Shown in pieces: positions 701 through 63,408 of a stretch of 64,000 nucleotides of DNA. A program made the translations under genes and the position numbers. This stretch comes from a bacterium. Its GTDB lineage: Bacteria; Lindowbacteria; 2-12-FULL-62-27. Under the pieces are notes generated by a model, which was given only the letters and a program-made list of their open reading frames with translations, had not been told where the DNA came from and did no database searches. The first letter of the stretch is position 1. The number at the start of each line of letters is the position of its first letter. The stretch covers positions 30,929 to 94,928 of the forward strand of contig JACQOF010000097.1 in the NCBI GenBank assembly GCA_016202645.1. Direction: 5' to 3'.

Positions 701-1924
701 TTGGACTTGAAACCCGCCGCGGCGCTCTCCTTTCCGGATCGGATTCTGCTTGCTCTGCTTAAATTCTCCTTCAGACTGCTCCAATCCGTGGTGGATATTC
801 GTGTCGGAATGCTCACCGCGGAGAGACTGGGGCATCTGGTCCTCGATGCGGAAGACTGGATGCGCAGCTCGATCAACTCATCCCGGGGCATTCCTCAAAT
901 CTCCCTGTTTTTTTGCGGGCGGTCCTGCAACCCGCGGCTTCTGGGCATGCTGAAACGCCAAATGTCCATCTGGAGCGGCCTCCCGGCGCTCCGGCTGTAC
1001 GAATTGTTGACGACAAGGGTTCTTCCCGCGGCTTCACGGATTGAATTCAAAAAACATCAGGAAGCCGACTGGGAAATGTGGACACATGGACGGCCGAATC
1101 TGACGTTTACGACTGCCGAAAAGAGGGAAGGGGAAGCGTTATTAAGATCCATGGGGATTCCGGAGGGATCACCGTTTGTCTGCATCCACACCCGGGATTC
1201 CGCCTATTTGGAGGATGGCAGATCGGTCCGGTCGAGAATGGGGGATTGGCGGTACCATGACTACCGCGATGGCCAAATCGAAAATTATCTGCCGGCGGCC
1301 GAGTGGCTCGCCGATCAGGGCTTTTTTGTGCTGAGAATGGGCGCGGTGGTCGAGCGCCCGATTCCGAGTCGTCATCCACGGGTGATCGACTATGCCTCCC
1401 GCCATCGGACGGATTTAGGCGACGTCTATCTCATGGCGAATTGCCGTTTTTATATCGGCAGCACCTCCGGCCTTCTGGTCCTGGCCATGGCCTTCAACAT
1501 TCCCTACGTCATGATCAATACGGTGCCGTTGATGTTAAAAGCCTCCAGCGCCCGGGATCTGTTCATTCTCAAAAAATACCGAAGCATCCGGGAGAACCGC
1601 ATCCTGACCTTTCCGGAAATTTTTTCCAGCGGCGGTCACCGCTGGATGACGACGGCAAGCTTCGAGCGCGCGGAGATTGAACTCGTCGAAAATTCAGCGG
1701 AGGAAATTCTTGCCGTCACGCGGGAAATGAAGGCCCGCCTGGACGGGACTTGGGTATCGACTCCGGAGGATGAGCTCTTACAAGCCCGGTTTGACGCCCT
1801 TTTCCCGCCGGCCAGTCCCTATGCCGGACATCCTTCAAGAATTGGCGCCGAATTTCTGCGCCGGAATGCGGACCTCCTGGAGGCCGGAATACCGGCGGGT
1901 GCGCGCAAGGCGGTTGCCGGATGA
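701..1924 (+). CDS. TIGR04372-like glycosyltransferase (paralogue 1)
   Basis: About 407 residues. It carries the block pattern of the family labelled TIGR04372 putative glycosyltransferases: RDSAYL, WRYHDYRDGQIENYLPA, VLRMGAVVE, RVIDYASRHRTD, GDVYLMANCRFYIGSTSGL. It is clearly paralogous to the minus-strand gene at 24001-25194 over its whole length. The N terminus is uncertain: the frame stays open back into the preceding gene without a matching homologous segment. I place the start at TTG 701 by comparison with the paralogue; TTG 707 and an internal ATG near 811 are alternatives. The stop overlaps the next ATG by 4 bases (ATGA), so translation is coupled. The acceptor and donor are unknown; I infer assembly of the surface glycan of this island. 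Confidence 0.85.
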   Translation: MDLKPAAALSFPDRILLALLKFSFRLLQSVVDIRVGMLTAERLGHLVLDAEDWMRSSINSSRGIPQISLFFCGRSCNPRLLGMLKRQMSIWSGLPALRLYELLTTRVLPAASRIEFKKHQEADWEMWTHGRPNLTFTTAEKREGEALLRSMGIPEGSPFVCIHTRDSAYLEDGRSVRSRMGDWRYHDYRDGQIENYLPAAEWLADQGFFVLRMGAVVERPIPSRHPRVIDYASRHRTDLGDVYLMANCRFYIGSTSGLLVLAMAFNIPYVMINTVPLMLKASSARDLFILKKYRSIRENRILTFPEIFSSGGHRWMTTASFERAEIELVENSAEEILAVTREMKARLDGTWVSTPEDELLQARFDALFPPASPYAGHPSRIGAEFLRRNADLLEAGIPAGARKAVAG

Positions 1925-3096
1925 ACTGCAGTCTTTGCGGACGGCCCGAACTGGATGCGATCCACGTTCCGCATCCATTTTTCCGGCACATGGATTTTGA
2001 GATGATACGACCCTCGGCCTGCTTGTACCGCTGCCGTCTCTGCCGTCTTCTTCAGACGGAGCACGGAAAAAATGAGGCGGCGGCGTTGGATCGGATGTAC
2101 CGGGGAAAACGATATGCCCGAAGCCGTCAGACTGAACAGACCGTTCAAGTCCCGGAATATCGCGGGCCCGTCACGCGATCGTTTTTGCAGGCGGACATTC
2201 TTGCCAATGGGATGGACCGGGAGCCGGCGTCGATCCTGGACATCGGCTGTTTTGACGGCCGGCTTTTGAATGAGTTTGTATCCAGGTTTCCCTCGGCCCA
2301 ACTTCATGGGTTTGACGTCAACGAACCGGTCCGGCGGCTTTTCCCTTCCGGAAAAAGATTTCAATTCTGGACAGGGTCTTTGGAAAACGTAACCGGGGTG
2401 TTTGATCTGGTGTGCCTGTCTCACTCCCTGATCTGTATTCCGGACATCGGAACCGCTCTTCGACGGATTTTGGATCTCCTGGCGCCCTCCGGCCGCGTTT
2501 TCATCCAATTGCCGGATATTTCGAAAAATCCCTACGCGATTCTGTTTGCCGATCAATACACCTATTTTACGAATACCATCCTGTCCAACGCACTTTCCGT
2601 GGCTGGATTTGATTGGTCGCCCATTCTGTCTTCATGGTTTCCGCGGGAAATCCTTGGGATCGCCCGGCCGCGCGGGGCGGCCCTTCCGGCGCCTGTCTGC
2701 GAAGATACCACCATATACGGGACACTTGCCTATCTGAATTCCGCCGCCGATCAAATGAAACGTGTCTCCGATGCCCATCGGACAGGGATGTCCAGTCCCC
2801 GAAGCTCCAGACTCAGGAAATCCCAGGACGGGATTTCCTTCAATCTGCGAAGGGGGCGGACGGGCGTTCTGGGAACGACCCTGAATGCGGCGTGGGCGGA
2901 TCAGCTGTGTCCGACGATGCAATTTTTTGTCGACGAAAATCCGGCGAAGATTGGCCGAAGATTTCGCGGGAAGCCTGTGATCCATCCGGAATCGCTGAAA
3001 CCGGACGACCAAATCCTTCTGCCGTACGGTCTCAGCGGAGCGGCCTTGCGGGAGAAATTTGAAAAGTCATATTCCGGAAATTTCGTGAACTTTTAA
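1921..3096 (+). CDS. Zinc-ribbon SAM-dependent methyltransferase (C-methyltransferase type)
   Basis: 391 residues. The N terminus has paired cysteines (CSLC ... CRLC, residues 3-42) like the zinc-binding domain of sugar C-methyltransferases. A class I SAM-binding core follows (ILDIGCFDGRLL, about residues 105-116), then a C-terminal Rossmann-like domain ending in FFVDENPAKIGRRFRGKPVIHPESL. Residues about 287-313 (HRTGMSS ... LRRGR) are the translation of a 79-bp palindromic element at 2779-2857, inserted just before that C-terminal domain. The gene is coupled by ATGA to the upstream glycosyltransferase and is followed 18 bases later by a sugar aminotransferase. This suggests modification of a nucleotide sugar; the exact substrate cannot be read from sequence. 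Confidence 0.85.
   Translation: MNCSLCGRPELDAIHVPHPFFRHMDFEMIRPSACLYRCRLCRLLQTEHGKNEAAALDRMYRGKRYARSRQTEQTVQVPEYRGPVTRSFLQADILANGMDREPASILDIGCFDGRLLNEFVSRFPSAQLHGFDVNEPVRRLFPSGKRFQFWTGSLENVTGVFDLVCLSHSLICIPDIGTALRRILDLLAPSGRVFIQLPDISKNPYAILFADQYTYFTNTILSNALSVAGFDWSPILSSWFPREILGIARPRGAALPAPVCEDTTIYGTLAYLNSAADQMKRVSDAHRTGMSSPRSSRLRKSQDGISFNLRRGRTGVLGTTLNAAWADQLCPTMQFFVDENPAKIGRRFRGKPVIHPESLKPDDQILLPYGLSGAALREKFEKSYSGNFVNF
2779..2857 (+). repeat. 79-bp palindromic element, copy A, inside a coding gene
   Basis: This segment matches the reverse complement of 41037-41115 at 77 of 79 positions; the differences are at 2839 and 2842. It contains a hairpin GGACA-GGGA-TGTCC (2780-2793) and a perfect 9-bp stem GGAAATCCC/GGGATTTCC around the loop AGGAC (2816-2838). 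It lies wholly inside the methyltransferase gene and is read without a stop, so it adds about 26 residues. The other copy is read in a different frame inside ribF. Confidence 0.9.
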
Positions 3097-21364: not shown

Positions 21365-21401
21365 GATAGAACCCCGCTCCTCATTATTCCGCCGCCAGGT
21401 C

Positions 21402-21471
21402 GTCATTCCCGCGAAAGCGGGAATCCAGATTATCGCAGTGCGGACTGGATTCCCGCTTTCGCGGGAATGAC
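21402..21471. repeat. Paired inverted repeat (GTCATTCCCGC family), perfect copy
   Basis: Two 27-bp arms (21402-21428 and 21445-21471) are exact reverse complements, separated by 16 bases. Each arm also forms its own hairpin (ATTCCCGC-gaaa-GCGGGAAT). This is a REP/BIME-like arrangement. Related pairs occur at 37965-38027, 57046-57130 and 63282-63355, with a decayed one at 42692-42737, always between genes. Confidence 0.9.
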
Positions 21472-21613
21472 GGAGAGGGCTGAATAGCAACCGACATTTA
21501 ACATTTGAAGTCATATGAATTCAAGCTTTCAACTCTTGCATCTTTTATGGTGGAATATTAGTCTCCGCGGACTGCCTGAATATATTGGCGGTGAAAGATG
21601 GAGGGGGTTGAGA

Positions 21614-29567: not shown

Positions 29568-29933
29568 AGTCGCCGCCCCTGGGTACGAGATTCGGGGACT
29601 GGTCCACTCGAATTGTGGGGAGGCTGGTAAACATCACCTGGGTGGTGGAGGAAGGGCCTCCCGCTCCATCGCGAGGACAGGGATGTCCGAGTGTCGGCCG
29701 CTCAGGGATGGCCGCTTTTGTCGCGGGTGCGTCCGCCTTTGGCGGACGCCGGGAGCGCGAGCGCTCCCGCGCCCGCGACCCATCCCACGCGCCGCGAGAA
29801 GCGCCGACGGAGTGCGTCTATGACGGTCATAGACGCACGGGTTCAATCGCATTCACGCGCTGTGGCCTGTTGATTTTCTTTTGATGCATTTCTCTCCTTT
29901 TGAAATTATCCGGAACAAATTAGAATAACCCAT
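29568..29933. other. Non-coding stretch with a chain of hairpins
   Basis: No convincing gene lies here. Between 29675 and 29838 there is a series of inverted repeats: GGACA-GGGA-TGTCC (29675-29688), also found in the 79-bp elements; an outer stem GTCGCGGG/CCCGCGAC (29720-29727 with 29772-29779) enclosing GTCCGCC-TTT-GGCGGAC (29731-29747) and GGGAGCGC-GA-GCGCTCCC (29751-29768); and a perfect 13-bp stem GTGCGTCTATGAC with its complement (29812-29838). It could be a structured RNA, a miniature mobile element or a terminator complex. Confidence 0.7.
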
Positions 29934-37930: not shown

Positions 37931-37964
37931 TCCTGCAAGACTTCAACCGCCCGAATCAATTTTC

Positions 37965-38027
37965 GTCACCCCCGCGAATGCGGGGGTCCAGAGTGCGGTT
38001 CTGGATTCCCGCTTTCGCGGGAATGAC
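37965..38027. repeat. Paired inverted repeat (GTCATTCCCGC family), diverged copy
   Basis: The left arm at 37965-37991 reads GTCACCCCCGCGAATGCGGG and on; the right arm at 38001-38027 has the standard CTGGATTCCCGCTTTCGCGG form. Each arm keeps its own hairpin although the two arms no longer match fully: compensating C/G changes preserve the left stem. It lies between the ftsK start and the pnp stop and could act as a transcript 3' end. Confidence 0.85.
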
Positions 38028-38035
38028 AATCAATG

Positions 38036-40354
38036 TCAGACGCTCGATCCCACCGTCGAATCCGAGCCGCCGCCCTGCCGATAGCCGCCGCTGTCTTCGC
38101 GGCGCGGGCCGCGGTCGCCCCGGTCAAATCTTGGCGGGCGGTCGCCCCGGTCCCGCGGGCCGCGGTCGTTTCGGTCGCCCCGGTCGAATCGGCGGGGCGG
38201 CCGGTCGTCCCGGTCTCGCGGGCCGCCGCTGGTGCGGGGTTTGACCGGGAGCGGGGGTTTGCCCTCCATCTCCCGGATGGCCGCGACGCGAGAGAGCCGG
38301 AGCCGCCCGAGATGATCGATCTCGATCAGCTTGACGGGCGTGACGTCGCCTTCCTTGAGCACATCTTCGACGCGCTCGGTCCGTTCCTCCGAGATTTCGG
38401 AAATATGGAGGAGTCCCTCGTGTCCGGGCATGATCTCGCAGAACGCGCCGAAGTCCACCACGCGGACGACCTTGCCCTGGTAGACGCGGCCGAGGTCCGG
38501 TTCGGCGATCATCATGTGGATTTTTTCCTTCGCGACGAGCGCGCTCTTCTCGTCCTCCGAGTAAATCCTCACGGAGCCGTCGTCCTCGATGTCGATCTTG
38601 ACGCCGGTCTCCTCGACGATCGCCCGGATGTTCTTGCCGCCCGGGCCGATGATCGCGCCGATCTTGTCCTTCGGAACCATGAGCAGGAACACCCGCGGAG
38701 CGTAGGGCGAAATGTCCGCGCGCGGCGCCGCGATAGCGGCTTCCATCTTGCCGATAATGTGCAGGCGCGCGGCCTGGGCTTTGGCCAGGGCCTTGCGCAT
38801 GAGGTCCACGGAAATCCCGCCGATCTTGATGTCCATCTGAATGGCGGTCACGCCCTGCCGGGTCCCGGCGACTTTGAAGTCCATGTCGCCGAGATGGTCC
38901 TCGTCACCGAGAATGTCCGTGAGAATCGCCACGCGGTCGCCCTCCTTGACGAGGCCCATCGCGACGCCCGCGACGTGCGAAGCGATCGGAACGCCCGCGT
39001 CCATCATCGCCAGCGATCCGCCGCAGACGGATGCCATGGAGGAAGAACCGTTCGATTCAAGAATGTCGGATACGAGTCGAATGGCGTACGGGAAGGATTC
39101 CTCGGTCGGGATGAGGGACCGGAGCGCCTTTTCGGCGAGCATGCCATGCCCGATTTCCCGGCGGCCCTGCCCGCCGAAGCGGCCGACTTCGCCGACTGAA
39201 AATGGGGGAAAATTATAGTGAAGGTAAAACCGGCGTGACTTGTCGCCCTCGATGTCGTCCGTCCGCTGGACATCGTCTCCCGTGCCGAGGGTCACGACGG
39301 CGAGGGCCTGTGTTTCGCCCCGCGTGAAAACGGCGGATCCGTGGGTCCTGGGAAGAAATCCGAGTTTGATGTCGATCGGCCGGACTTCGTCAAGTCCGCG
39401 GCCGTCGTTGCGTTTGCCCTTTTCAAGAATGTTCGACCGGACGATCTTGGCTTTGATCTCCTCGATCTCGCCCTTGGCCTCCATCTCGATCTTCTCGCGC
39501 TCCAGCCCGAGTTTCCCGGCGGCTTGGCCGATCGCGTCGTCCTCGATCCTGTGAATTTCCGCGTAGCGTTCCATCTTGGTCGGGATGACGAGGGCCTTGG
39601 ACAGGCCGGCGGCCGCGAGCGCGTTCAGCGTCTCGGCGAGTTTCGGAGTTTTGGCGGGCGGCGAGAAAAGCCGTTTGGCCTTGCCGACTTTCCGCGCCAG
39701 TTCCTCCTGGACCTTGCAGATTTTTTGGATTTCCGACTGGGCGATCTGCAGGCCCTCGATCACAACGTCCTCGGAAACCTGCCGGGCGTTGCCTTCGACC
39801 ATCGCAATGTCGGTGGCGGTGCCGGCGACCACCAGTTCCAAATCGGCGTTATCGACTTCCTCCCGGGACGGGTTGACTTTGAACTGGCCGTTGAGCCGGA
39901 TCACGCGCACGGCGCCGACGGCCTTGGTGAAGGGAATGTCCGAGATCAGGAGGGACGTGGCCGCGCCGACGATCGAGAGAACGTCGGGCAGGGCGGTCAG
40001 ATCCGCGGAAATGACGAATGACGCCGCCTGGACTTCGTTGTGGTACCCTTCCGGAAAGAGCGGCCGGAGAGGCCGGTCGGTCATGCGGGCCGAGAGGGTT
40101 TCGCGGTCGCCGGGGCGGGTTTCGCGTTTGATGAATCCACCGGGGATTTTTCCGGCCGAATAGGCTTTTTCCCGGTATTCGATGGTCAAGGGCAGAAAGT
40201 CGACGCCCGCTTCGGCTTTTTCCTCGGCGCACGCGGTGGAGAGCACCATCGTGTCGCCGTATTTCACGAGGACGGAACCGTTCGCCTGTTTGGCGAGTAG
40301 TCCTTGAGTGAGGGTCAGCGGTCGCCCGCCGACGTCAACGGATACTTCGTTCAT
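38036..40354 (-). CDS. pnp: Polyribonucleotide nucleotidyltransferase (PNPase)
   Basis: 772 residues. Two RNase PH domains (GDTMVLSTACAEEKAEAGVD ... GQFKVNPSR; then DGRGLDEVRPIDIKLGFLPR and FTRGETQALAVVTLG) are joined by a helical linker. Then come a KH domain (KDKIGAIIGPGGKNIRAIVE) and an S1 domain (GKVVRVVDFGAFCEIMPGHEGLLHISEI). It degrades RNA 3' to 5' with phosphate. The C terminus adds about 55 residues rich in Arg, Asp and Gly (RFDRGDRNDRGPRDRGDRPP ...) encoded by repeated GGTCGCCCCGGTC-like DNA. It follows rpsO on the same strand. Confidence 0.97.
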   Translation of the reverse strand: MNEVSVDVGGRPLTLTQGLLAKQANGSVLVKYGDTMVLSTACAEEKAEAGVDFLPLTIEYREKAYSAGKIPGGFIKRETRPGDRETLSARMTDRPLRPLFPEGYHNEVQAASFVISADLTALPDVLSIVGAATSLLISDIPFTKAVGAVRVIRLNGQFKVNPSREEVDNADLELVVAGTATDIAMVEGNARQVSEDVVIEGLQIAQSEIQKICKVQEELARKVGKAKRLFSPPAKTPKLAETLNALAAAGLSKALVIPTKMERYAEIHRIEDDAIGQAAGKLGLEREKIEMEAKGEIEEIKAKIVRSNILEKGKRNDGRGLDEVRPIDIKLGFLPRTHGSAVFTRGETQALAVVTLGTGDDVQRTDDIEGDKSRRFYLHYNFPPFSVGEVGRFGGQGRREIGHGMLAEKALRSLIPTEESFPYAIRLVSDILESNGSSSMASVCGGSLAMMDAGVPIASHVAGVAMGLVKEGDRVAILTDILGDEDHLGDMDFKVAGTRQGVTAIQMDIKIGGISVDLMRKALAKAQAARLHIIGKMEAAIAAPRADISPYAPRVFLLMVPKDKIGAIIGPGGKNIRAIVEETGVKIDIEDDGSVRIYSEDEKSALVAKEKIHMMIAEPDLGRVYQGKVVRVVDFGAFCEIMPGHEGLLHISEISEERTERVEDVLKEGDVTPVKLIEIDHLGRLRLSRVAAIREMEGKPPLPVKPRTSGGPRDRDDRPPRRFDRGDRNDRGPRDRGDRPPRFDRGDRGPRREDSGGYRQGGGSDSTVGSSV

Positions 40355-40542: not shown

Positions 40543-40806
40543 TTACTTGCGCAATCCGAGCCGCTTGACCACGCCGCGGTACCGGCCCAGCTCGCTGGTT
40601 CGGAGATGGCTGAGAAGCTGGCGCCGTCGGCCGACCATGATCAAAAGTCCGCGGCGGGACCCGTGATCTTTGGGATGGGTTTTCAGGTGGTCTGTGAGAG
40701 TGCGAATGCGCTCCGTGAGGACCGCCACCTGAACATCCGCGGATCCGGTATCCTGGTCATGAGTCCGGTATTCATCAATGATTTTTCGCTTCATTTCCTT
40801 TTCCAT
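40543..40806 (-). CDS. rpsO: 30S ribosomal protein S15
   Basis: 87 residues, close to the standard 88-89. TGSADVQVAVLTERIRTLTD, HLKTHPKDHGSRRGLL and GRRRQLLSHL are the S15 signature blocks that bind 16S rRNA helices 20-22. Its start overlaps the end of ribF by 16 bases. The order ribF-rpsO-pnp is conserved in many bacteria. Confidence 0.97.
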   Translation of the reverse strand: MEKEMKRKIIDEYRTHDQDTGSADVQVAVLTERIRTLTDHLKTHPKDHGSRRGLLIMVGRRRQLLSHLRTSELGRYRGVVKRLGLRK

Positions 40807-41777
40807 TTCAATATCCTTTTCGCCCGGGCAACGTCGGTTTGGATCGCCGCTTTCAACCGGGCTAAATTCGAAAATTTCCGTTCCGGCCTCAAAAACCGGA
40901 CCACATCAACCGCCACCACCGCCGCTGGCCGGATTGAAACGCGTTTCCCGTCCAGCACGTGTACTTCCAAAATCGCCCGGCGCGATGCCCGCAAAGTCGG
41001 CGCGACGCCGAAATTCATGACGGCGGGGCGGCACCGGCCCCCTTCGCAGATGGAGGGAAATCCCGTCCTGGGATTTCCTGAGTCTGGAGCTTCGGGGACT
41101 GGACATCCCTGTCCGCCCGCGGTTTTCAGCCAACCGGCGTAGACGCCGAATTTCGGCTGAAGCTCGTTCGCTACATGGATGTTGACGGTCCGCGCGCCGG
41201 TTTTACCGCCAAGTCCCGCGCCGGTTTCCACCCGGCCGACCAGTTCCAAGGGCCGACCGAGAAGTTTCGCCGCGGATTCAACCCGTCCGGCGGATACCAT
41301 GCGTCGAACTCGCGTACTCTGGATCGCAGTCCCTCCGGACAGAACCGGCTTGACCGCAAGAGCAAACGCCCCGCGGTCTCGAAGAAGCCGGTCCAGATCC
41401 CGGACCGTGCCGGCGCGCCGATGGCCGAACCGGAATCCCCGGCCGACCACGACGCCCTTTACATTCCAGTGTCGAAAGAGCACCCGCTCCACAAATTGAG
41501 CGGGGGACAGTCTAGCCAGTGATTTCGTAAAATGCAAGGGATATATCCGGCGGATGCCCAAGCTGCGGATGGAATCGCAACGCTGGGAAAACGTCTGAAC
41601 AAGCGGGACGGGATGTCCCGGCGCCAGGATCCGGCTGGGATGGATGGAAAAGGTCAGCGCGACAGGCAGAGCGCCGAGCGCGCTCGCGCGCCGGAGCGTT
41701 GTCCGCAAAATGGCCTGATGGCCGAGGTGGACGCCGTCGAAAATTCCGATCGCAACGACAGCCGCTGGTTTAGACAA
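40791..41777 (-). CDS. ribF: Bifunctional riboflavin kinase/FAD synthetase with element insert
   Basis: 328 residues. The N-terminal FAD synthetase domain has GIFDGVHLGHQ (11-21) and VVVGRGFRFGHRRAGTV; STRVRRMVSAGRVESAAKLLGRP leads into the riboflavin kinase domain with GKTGARTVNIHV and PAVMNFGVAPTLR. Between the strand FGVYAGW and PAVMNFGVAPT, where the family has only a short loop, residues about 221-247 (GGQGCPVPEAPDSGNPRTGF ...) are the translation of the 79-bp palindromic element. The frame and the flanking motifs are intact, so the enzyme may tolerate the loop. RibF makes FMN and FAD. Confidence 0.93.
   Translation of the reverse strand: MSKPAAVVAIGIFDGVHLGHQAILRTTLRRASALGALPVALTFSIHPSRILAPGHPVPLVQTFSQRCDSIRSLGIRRIYPLHFTKSLARLSPAQFVERVLFRHWNVKGVVVGRGFRFGHRRAGTVRDLDRLLRDRGAFALAVKPVLSGGTAIQSTRVRRMVSAGRVESAAKLLGRPLELVGRVETGAGLGGKTGARTVNIHVANELQPKFGVYAGWLKTAGGQGCPVPEAPDSGNPRTGFPSICEGGRCRPAVMNFGVAPTLRASRRAILEVHVLDGKRVSIRPAAVVAVDVVRFLRPERKFSNLARLKAAIQTDVARAKRILKWKRK
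41037..41115 (-). repeat. 79-bp palindromic element, copy B, inside ribF
   Basis: The minus strand here matches 2779-2857 at 77 of 79 bases, including both hairpins (GGACA/TGTCC and GGAAATCCC/GGGATTTCC). It lies in the same orientation relative to transcription as copy A but is read in another frame, giving a Pro/Gly-rich peptide instead of the Ser/Arg-rich one in copy A. Neither reading contains a stop. Confidence 0.9.
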
Positions 41778-57000: not shown

Positions 57001-57045
57001 AGGCGAGATTGGAGAAGGCTCAGGTCTCAAGTTTTGGGAATTGTC

Positions 57046-57130
57046 GTCATTCCCGCGAAAGCGGGAATCCAGTCCATGACCGGCTCCCGTTGGAATTCCG
57101 AACCTGGATCCCCGCTTTCGCGGGGATGAC
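57046..57130. repeat. Paired inverted repeat (GTCATTCCCGC family)
   Basis: The left arm 57046-57072 is identical to the left arm at 21402. The right arm 57104-57130 reads CTGGATCCCCGCTTTCGCGG and on, with a compensated change that keeps its own stem. The spacer is 31 bases. It lies between the aldehyde-oxidoreductase-like FAD subunit and the secreted protein. Confidence 0.88.
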
Positions 57131-57145
57131 GAAAAGGACGGACAG

Positions 57146-63210: not shown

Positions 63211-63281
63211 ATGAATGAAATGATTCAAAGAATCAACCCGCACAAAAATATCCTTGAAAGAACAGCCATTTCTCATGATTT

Positions 63282-63355
63282 GTCATGCCCGCGCAAGCGG
63301 GCATCCAGCCGTTTCTCGTACAAGGATTCTGGATTCCCGCTTTTGCGGGAATGAC
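63282..63355. repeat. Paired inverted repeat (GTCATTCCCGC family)
   Basis: The left arm 63282-63308 reads GTCATGCCCGCGCAAGCGGG and on; the right arm 63329-63355 reads CTGGATTCCCGCTTTTGCGG and on. Each arm keeps an internal hairpin by paired changes. It lies between the convergent ends of the DUF4160 and rseP genes. Confidence 0.87.
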
Positions 63356-63408
63356 GAATAGGACACCCGGCGTCTACTGGCCCTTTACCTGAAGCGCAAC
63401 CATGCGGA

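Follow-up and report, generated by a model that had tools for sequence, protein, structure and literature searches.

A palindromic, apparently mobile element family found within protein-coding genes of a Lindowbacteria lineage

Introduction

As summarised in two reports from earlier work (Ogata 2000, 2002), the RPEs of Rickettsia are palindromic repeats inserted in frame into many unrelated genes, where they add tens of residues to the encoded protein (PMC10969869, PMC3733652). PMC10969869 gives their size, as first reported, as about 150 bp, PMC3733652 has RPE-4 and RPE-6 ending in CGTC, and neither of the two names a mobilising enzyme. REPs of the GTAG/CGTC class are also found within ORFs, adding 20-30 amino acids; many of these are located in genes for DNA repair and some in those for tRNA synthetases, with examples from Opitutus terrae, Thauera and Rickettsia conorii (PMC3733652). 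In Coxiella, the small non-autonomous repeats QMITE1/2 are in some cases fused to ORFs, at gene 3' ends (PMC5896051).

The stretch of Lindowbacteria DNA analysed here (64,000 nucleotides, hereafter the window) contains two copies of an 80-nt repeat, which we hold with high confidence to belong to a non-autonomous mobile palindromic family of this lineage, folded into hairpins and tolerated within genes as loops. The best reading of the available sequences is that the family is new by sequence while its lifestyle is known from RPEs and intragenic REPs, and Rickettsia, where this strategy is best known, appears to be matched here by an independent case. Both movement and translation of the element are inferred from sequence, with no transcript, protein or population data behind them.

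Copy number and distribution of the element

Copy A occupies positions 2779-2858 on the forward strand and copy B positions 41036-41115 on the reverse strand, both being of type A (see below) and 80 nt long; in copy A, the net insert amounts to 78 nt and has a CG(GAC) direct repeat on either side. The preliminary description had recognised part of this pair as a 79-bp match, in which 2779-2857 and the reverse complement of 41037-41115 agree at 77 of 79 bases, had placed the copies in a methyltransferase ORF and in ribF, and had assigned to each copy two hairpins, the same orientation to transcription, a different reading frame and no stop codon. All of these statements hold (the frames being phase 0 and phase 2), and an outer stem and the further copies of the element had been overlooked.

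In the draft genome to which the window belongs (G000; 2.9 Mb in 146 contigs, 82% complete), about 40 copies were recovered by blastn, and a covariance model built from 36 copies yielded 56 matches. The model gave 8 further matches in G001 and none in G002, two genomes of the same family. The copies of G001 are the identical set to those of MFPR01 (Candidatus Lindowbacteria bacterium RIFCSPLOWO2_12_FULL_62_27), the sole genome matched when the left-end pattern was scanned against 84,980 species genomes, a collection from which the window's own genome was perhaps left out. When 60 genomes of relatives were searched, the element matched only G001 besides its own genome. A phage, plasmid or virus origin was rejected for lack of any match in viral contigs, phages and plasmids, and a structured RNA of a known family was rejected because Rfam gave no match in the window at gathering score.

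The left end of the element reads CGGACAGGGATGTCC and the right end GCGTTGGGGGCG, and four subtypes were distinguished. Subtype A comprises about 30 near-identical copies in G000, subtype B is older and present in both G000 and G001, subtype C consists of two copies, and the divergent subtype D (81-83 nt) is found mostly in G001. In G000, the copies of 79 and 82 nt lie between genes. Six type A copies are 100% identical across 80 nt and lie at unrelated sites with unrelated flanks, which would indicate that the element has been recently active and has spread.

Unit length, junctions and fold

For most copies, the left flank and the downstream sequence share a direct repeat of at least 4 bases at a spacing of 78, and no such flanking repeat was found at spacings of 75-77 or 79-81, implying a net gain of 78 nt with a CG core on both sides. 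The element is thereby shown by sequence to be a discrete unit of 78 nt with short CG-centred direct repeats at its borders, present in copies at about 56 loci whose flanks are unrelated. The core at both junctions usually reads GGCGG or CGGAC, and in the flanks C C G G is preferred ahead of the element and G, A/G, C/T behind it. The favoured insertion context, CCGG-CG-GRC, resembles the joined element ends GGGGG-CG-GACAGG. This target preference is weak, and the junction model therefore rests on the 2-nt core and a G-rich context. The direct repeats at the junctions are 2-5 nt long and CG-centred, and without exact empty sites a target site duplication cannot be distinguished from a shared recombination core. 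A trade-off in junction homology between left and right flanks was set aside as too weak (r = -0.16, p = 0.12). At locus L038 (2495-2600), near 1490 of locus L135 and at 1490-1510 of locus L017, incomplete copies follow one another in tandem across the CG junction (GTTGGGGGCGGACAGGG); they are consistent with insertion at the end of an existing copy or with a circular or tandem intermediate.

RNAalifold predicts two hairpins, the 5' one and a long one that has an inner stem of 9-10 bp. In copy A, the 5' hairpin (GGACA-GGGA-TGTCC) lies at 2780-2793 on the forward strand, and its stem covaries from GGACA/TGTCC to ATACA/TGTAT. The outer stem of the long hairpin spans 2797-2856 on the same strand (2797-2805 pairing with 2847-2856); it is interrupted and weak in type A, whereas in most copies of types B and D it pairs perfectly and covaries. 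The inner hairpin, AGGAAATCCC-AGGAC-GGGATTTCCT, is located at 2815-2839 on the forward strand in copy A and at 41055-41079 on the reverse strand in copy B, and a search with the 9-bp hairpin pattern gave three matches against 0.11 expected by chance. Across 30 mainly non-A copies, 94.8% of the stem cells are paired and ten pairs show two-sided changes, amounting to 66 compensatory cells compared with 18.5 in shuffled controls and at most 16 in slid registers. A further example of such changes runs from CCCCAACGC/GCGTTGGGG through CCCCAATGC/GCATTGGGG to CCCTGTTGC/GCAACAGGG. By these comparisons, the 5' hairpin and the long hairpin are shown to make up the fold, and compensatory changes preserve their stems. 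One-sided, wobble-type cells are rare in the stems, which suggests selection on DNA pairing rather than on RNA and points, as an inference, to a hairpin maintained at the DNA level. DNA folding of the element gave z-scores of -3 to -7. A hypothetical circular 78-nt form would fold with the same stems into a dumbbell.

Relation to known elements and possible mobilisation

In behaviour, the Lindowbacteria element comes nearest to the RPEs (PMC10969869): like them, it is inserted in frame into otherwise conserved genes and is missing from their orthologues (see below). It differs from RPEs in size (78 nt net and 80 nt conserved, against the roughly 150 bp cited above), in its phylum, in having five usable frames and in its CG-centred junction, and from RPE-4 and RPE-6 in lacking CGTC at either end. 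The scan of species genomes described above matched Lindowbacteria only, although it relied on the left-end pattern alone and involved no alignment to RPE sequences. Compared with Coxiella QMITE1/2, it is likewise a small non-autonomous repeat with some copies fused to ORFs, but it shows no TA duplication and occupies the interior of functional genes rather than 3' ends. Unlike a MITE, it has no terminal inverted repeats, its left end CGGACAGGG contrasting with CGCCCCC, the reverse complement of the right end. With the ends of IS200/IS605 (Y1, HUH) it shares hairpins near the ends, and the candidate enzyme class is present in G000; it differs in that no element end lies at a Y1 gene and in that both target flanks, not one side, are biased.

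We also considered whether the element might simply be a REP/REPIN-type member of the known GTAG/CGTC class moved by a RAYT. Size and palindromic character are similar, REPs too occur in ORFs and repair genes (PMC3733652), and the intragenic hosts overlap in kind, including here RecF, RecG, SMC, an AddA/UvrD-like helicase, LeuRS and ValRS. In addition, G000 holds ten Y1 genes, one of which (L145) has a CGTC palindrome nearby. The element ends, CGGACAGG and GGGGGCG, nevertheless carry neither a GTAG nor a CGTC tag tetranucleotide, the hairpin architecture has two domains and three stems, and the majority of copies are in genes, whereas REPs are mostly intergenic (PMC3733652). Nor was the linkage expected of a REP/RAYT system seen: none of the ten Y1 genes of G000 has the element as its ends, no Y1 gene inspected in the three genomes is flanked by it, and a Y1/RAYT gene so flanked was rejected as its source. 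The sole copy near a Y1 gene (L142) lies about 1.1 kb from the Y1 ORF, inside another gene, and the repeats that accompany several Y1 genes are different ones, among them GGGGTCAGACC and a CGTC palindrome. Membership of the known REP class thus appears improbable. As the tests of tag, size and transposase linkage all failed, we file the element as a separate family sharing its lifestyle with RPEs and intragenic REPs.

No transposase, integrase or full-length parent carrying the element ends was found. A parent sharing only the ends was also rejected, as end-motif searches returned nothing beyond copies already known, matches due to chance and a single short remnant of a deletion. We infer that this separate family may move as single-stranded DNA folded into hairpins, on which an enzyme acts in trans, with insertion favouring a CG step in a context like that of the joined ends. 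The mobiliser would most likely be an unlinked Y1 (HUH) tyrosine transposase of the RAYT or TIRYT kind, an assignment that is our leading guess and remains tentative. More doubtful still, though conceivable, is that the element represents a new class of protein-inserting mobile DNA, in which some enzyme with no established link to elements of this sort joins a folded single strand at a CG core. In this reading, residence in essential genes would have shaped the architecture, with its net length divisible by three, its five open frames and its loop-forming peptide. A host function for the element would not be required, and nothing seen here suggests an intracellular lifestyle of the host bacterium. 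A literature search for the AGGGATG loop motif yielded nothing relevant.

Host genes and reading frames

Copy A lies in a SAM-dependent methyltransferase ORF of 391 aa (1921-3096, forward strand), in which it encodes RTGMSSPRSSRLRKSQDGISFNLRRGR (aa 287-313); the Pfam methyltransferase domain lies upstream of this segment. Copy B lies in ribF (FAD synthetase/riboflavin kinase, 328 aa; 40791-41777, reverse strand) and encodes GGQGCPVPEAPDSGNPRTGFPSICEGGR (aa 221-248) within the riboflavin kinase domain. Across G000, about 38 copies were assigned to genes, 34 of them interior and in frame and four near the C-terminus; the remaining copies lie between genes, at gene starts or at a contig end (one copy), or are unclear. 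Codon usage, ORF continuity and Pfam served to call hosts and frames, and for some hosts codon usage alone decided the frame. In addition to the repair and chromosome proteins SMC, RecG, RecF, an AddA/UvrD-like helicase and an OGG-like glycosylase, the hosts include the enzymes LeuRS, ValRS, transketolase, E2 acyltransferase, RibF, spermine synthase, PP2C and glutaredoxin-TrxB, four two-component proteins (histidine kinases among them), ribosomal protein S2 (in its C-terminal tail) and what looks like an NAD-glutamate dehydrogenase. Three genes, on contigs C13, C125 and C146, carry two insertions each; the doubly inserted genes at loci L018, L027 and L036 are an AddA/UvrD-like helicase, a spermine-synthase ORF and an S1-domain protein.

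The 38 coding copies are distributed over three forward phases (12, 11 and 5 copies) and two reverse phases (9 and 1), and the closed reverse frame is used by none of them (chance about 0.001). All five stop-free frames being used and the closed one never, these data suggest that the host gene is read through the element. Since five frames, on both strands, serve to read the same DNA, a shared protein domain was rejected in favour of a DNA repeat. Within genes, the element occurs as the full form and as two deletion forms, with net lengths of 78, 45 and 27 nt, every one a multiple of three. The 47-nt short form (net 45) follows a signal peptide in frame. A 29-nt remnant with both type A ends (net 27) lies in frame at about 575-603 of locus L158, in reverse orientation to its host gene (107-1201), which looks like an NAD synthetase.

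Could the insert be removed from the message as a mini-intron, or skipped during translation, leaving the host protein unchanged? Translational bypassing is what the byp elements of Magnusiomyces mitochondria undergo, and the stable hairpins within essential genes, together with a precise unit whose short terminal direct repeats could act as take-off and landing sites, would suit such a process. It would require neither an open frame nor a length divisible by three, yet the coding copies all keep the frame, avoid the closed frame, have in-gene deletion forms of the lengths given above and occur in both orientations to transcription, making this explanation very unlikely.

We infer instead that a tolerated element survives in genes because its net length is a multiple of three, because it is open in three forward and two reverse frames, and because the peptide it encodes, which is mostly polar, can be accommodated as a loop, insertions at other protein sites having been purged. 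The coding share of the copies is about 69%, compared with about 92% coding sequence in the window (a rough heuristic), that is, below the expectation for random insertion, suggesting that many coding insertions have probably been lost.

Host genes without the insert

Orthologues of 15 host genes, located in G001 and G002 with a concatenated flank query, all lack the insert (15 of 15), and the alignment gap is 25-26 aa in the best-aligned hosts (LeuRS, radical SAM, a YgfZ-like protein, E2 acyltransferase, a histidine kinase and RibF). In the radical-SAM gene, the filled site reads CTG AAG/GCG...GCG/GGC CGC TGT CCC and the orthologue CTG AAG GGC GGC GCC TGC CCA. Alignments to solved homologues break at the element as well, at query 500/535 (chain 757/769) for T. 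thermophilus LeuRS and at 101/127 (chain 465/467) for E2. For the G001 insertion in locus L042, no clear orthologue was found in G000 or G002, so that no reciprocal empty site is available. These comparisons show an element residing inside genes that relatives possess without it, with the frame kept and only the five stop-free frames used.

In an AlphaFold model of RibF, the insert (residues 221-247) has pLDDT below 50 and no secondary structure and lies between strands 211-219 and 249-258, while most of the protein outside the insert folds; the insert is thus predicted to form a disordered loop between two riboflavin kinase strands. The model was built from a three-sequence alignment and, with a mean pLDDT of 71, its quality is moderate. 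The loop at the insert site varies in length in the alignment to solved RibF chains.

The preliminary description had proposed that an apparently unrelated sequence behaves here like an RPE, and had regarded this as refuted if relatives carried the same peptide segments at these places without a shared DNA element, or if the element appeared nowhere else and the match was due to assembly error. Neither is the case: the relatives lack the segments, and the searches it called for revealed the element at 56 places in its own genome, in both coding and intergenic positions, and insert-free versions of the host genes in two same-family genomes and among the solved homologues of LeuRS and E2. The proposal is supported to this extent, a mobilising enzyme and a functional protein product remaining unproven.

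The absence of the element from orthologues also bears on whether it has been domesticated, as an RNA or peptide with a selected role in its hosts such as regulation or a protein-binding loop. The compensatory changes in the stems could be read in this way, as could the predominance of forward over reverse orientation relative to transcription (28 versus 10, p about 0.005). This bias is, however, largely explained by three forward versus two reverse frames being open (p 0.10 against the 3:2 expected from them), and the rarity of wobble pairs runs contrary to RNA-level selection. Furthermore, the hosts are functionally unrelated and the peptide differs across the five frames, indicating that no common peptide is selected, and the near-identical copies point to recent spread. 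We give domestication very little credence. An assembly, binning or contamination artefact, which a draft genome of this many contigs with a copy at a contig end might raise, can be dismissed for practical purposes, as copies lie in unique flanks with subtype-specific sequence, a related family is present in a second, independently assembled genus, and the six identical copies with unrelated flanks exclude assembly error.

That an uncultured phylum holds an unrelated family whose copies are for the most part in genes, many of them essential, suggests that the in-gene strategy evolves repeatedly. Natural 26-residue insertions in LeuRS, ValRS, RibF, RecF, E2 and other proteins constitute a resource on which protein sites tolerate insertion, and the series of closely related copies may help to find the mobilising enzyme.

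Other repeats in and around the window

Palindromes containing CGTCATTCCCGCGAAAGCGGGAATCCAG occur as inverted pairs at 21399-21483, 37962-38039, 57041-57142 and 63279-63367 of the window; they fit the CGTC-tagged REP class (PMC3733652), and the Y1 gene at L145 has one in its vicinity. Another palindrome family, which shares the GGACAGGGATGTCC hairpin (GAGGACAGGGATGTCCGAG...CGGCCGCTCAGGGATGGCCGC), is found at 29674-29735 of the window and on the reverse strand near 629 of locus L119. Further two-hairpin elements with AGGGAT-like loops were seen in G002 (loci L111 and L123), and these loops together with the shared hairpin raise the possibility of a wider superfamily. Finally, a stretch of about 140 nt containing GGGGACAGGGATGTCCCC (near 568 of locus L118, 233 of L120 and 235 of L121) is near-identical between G000 and two contig ends of G001, although the two genomes belong to different genera.
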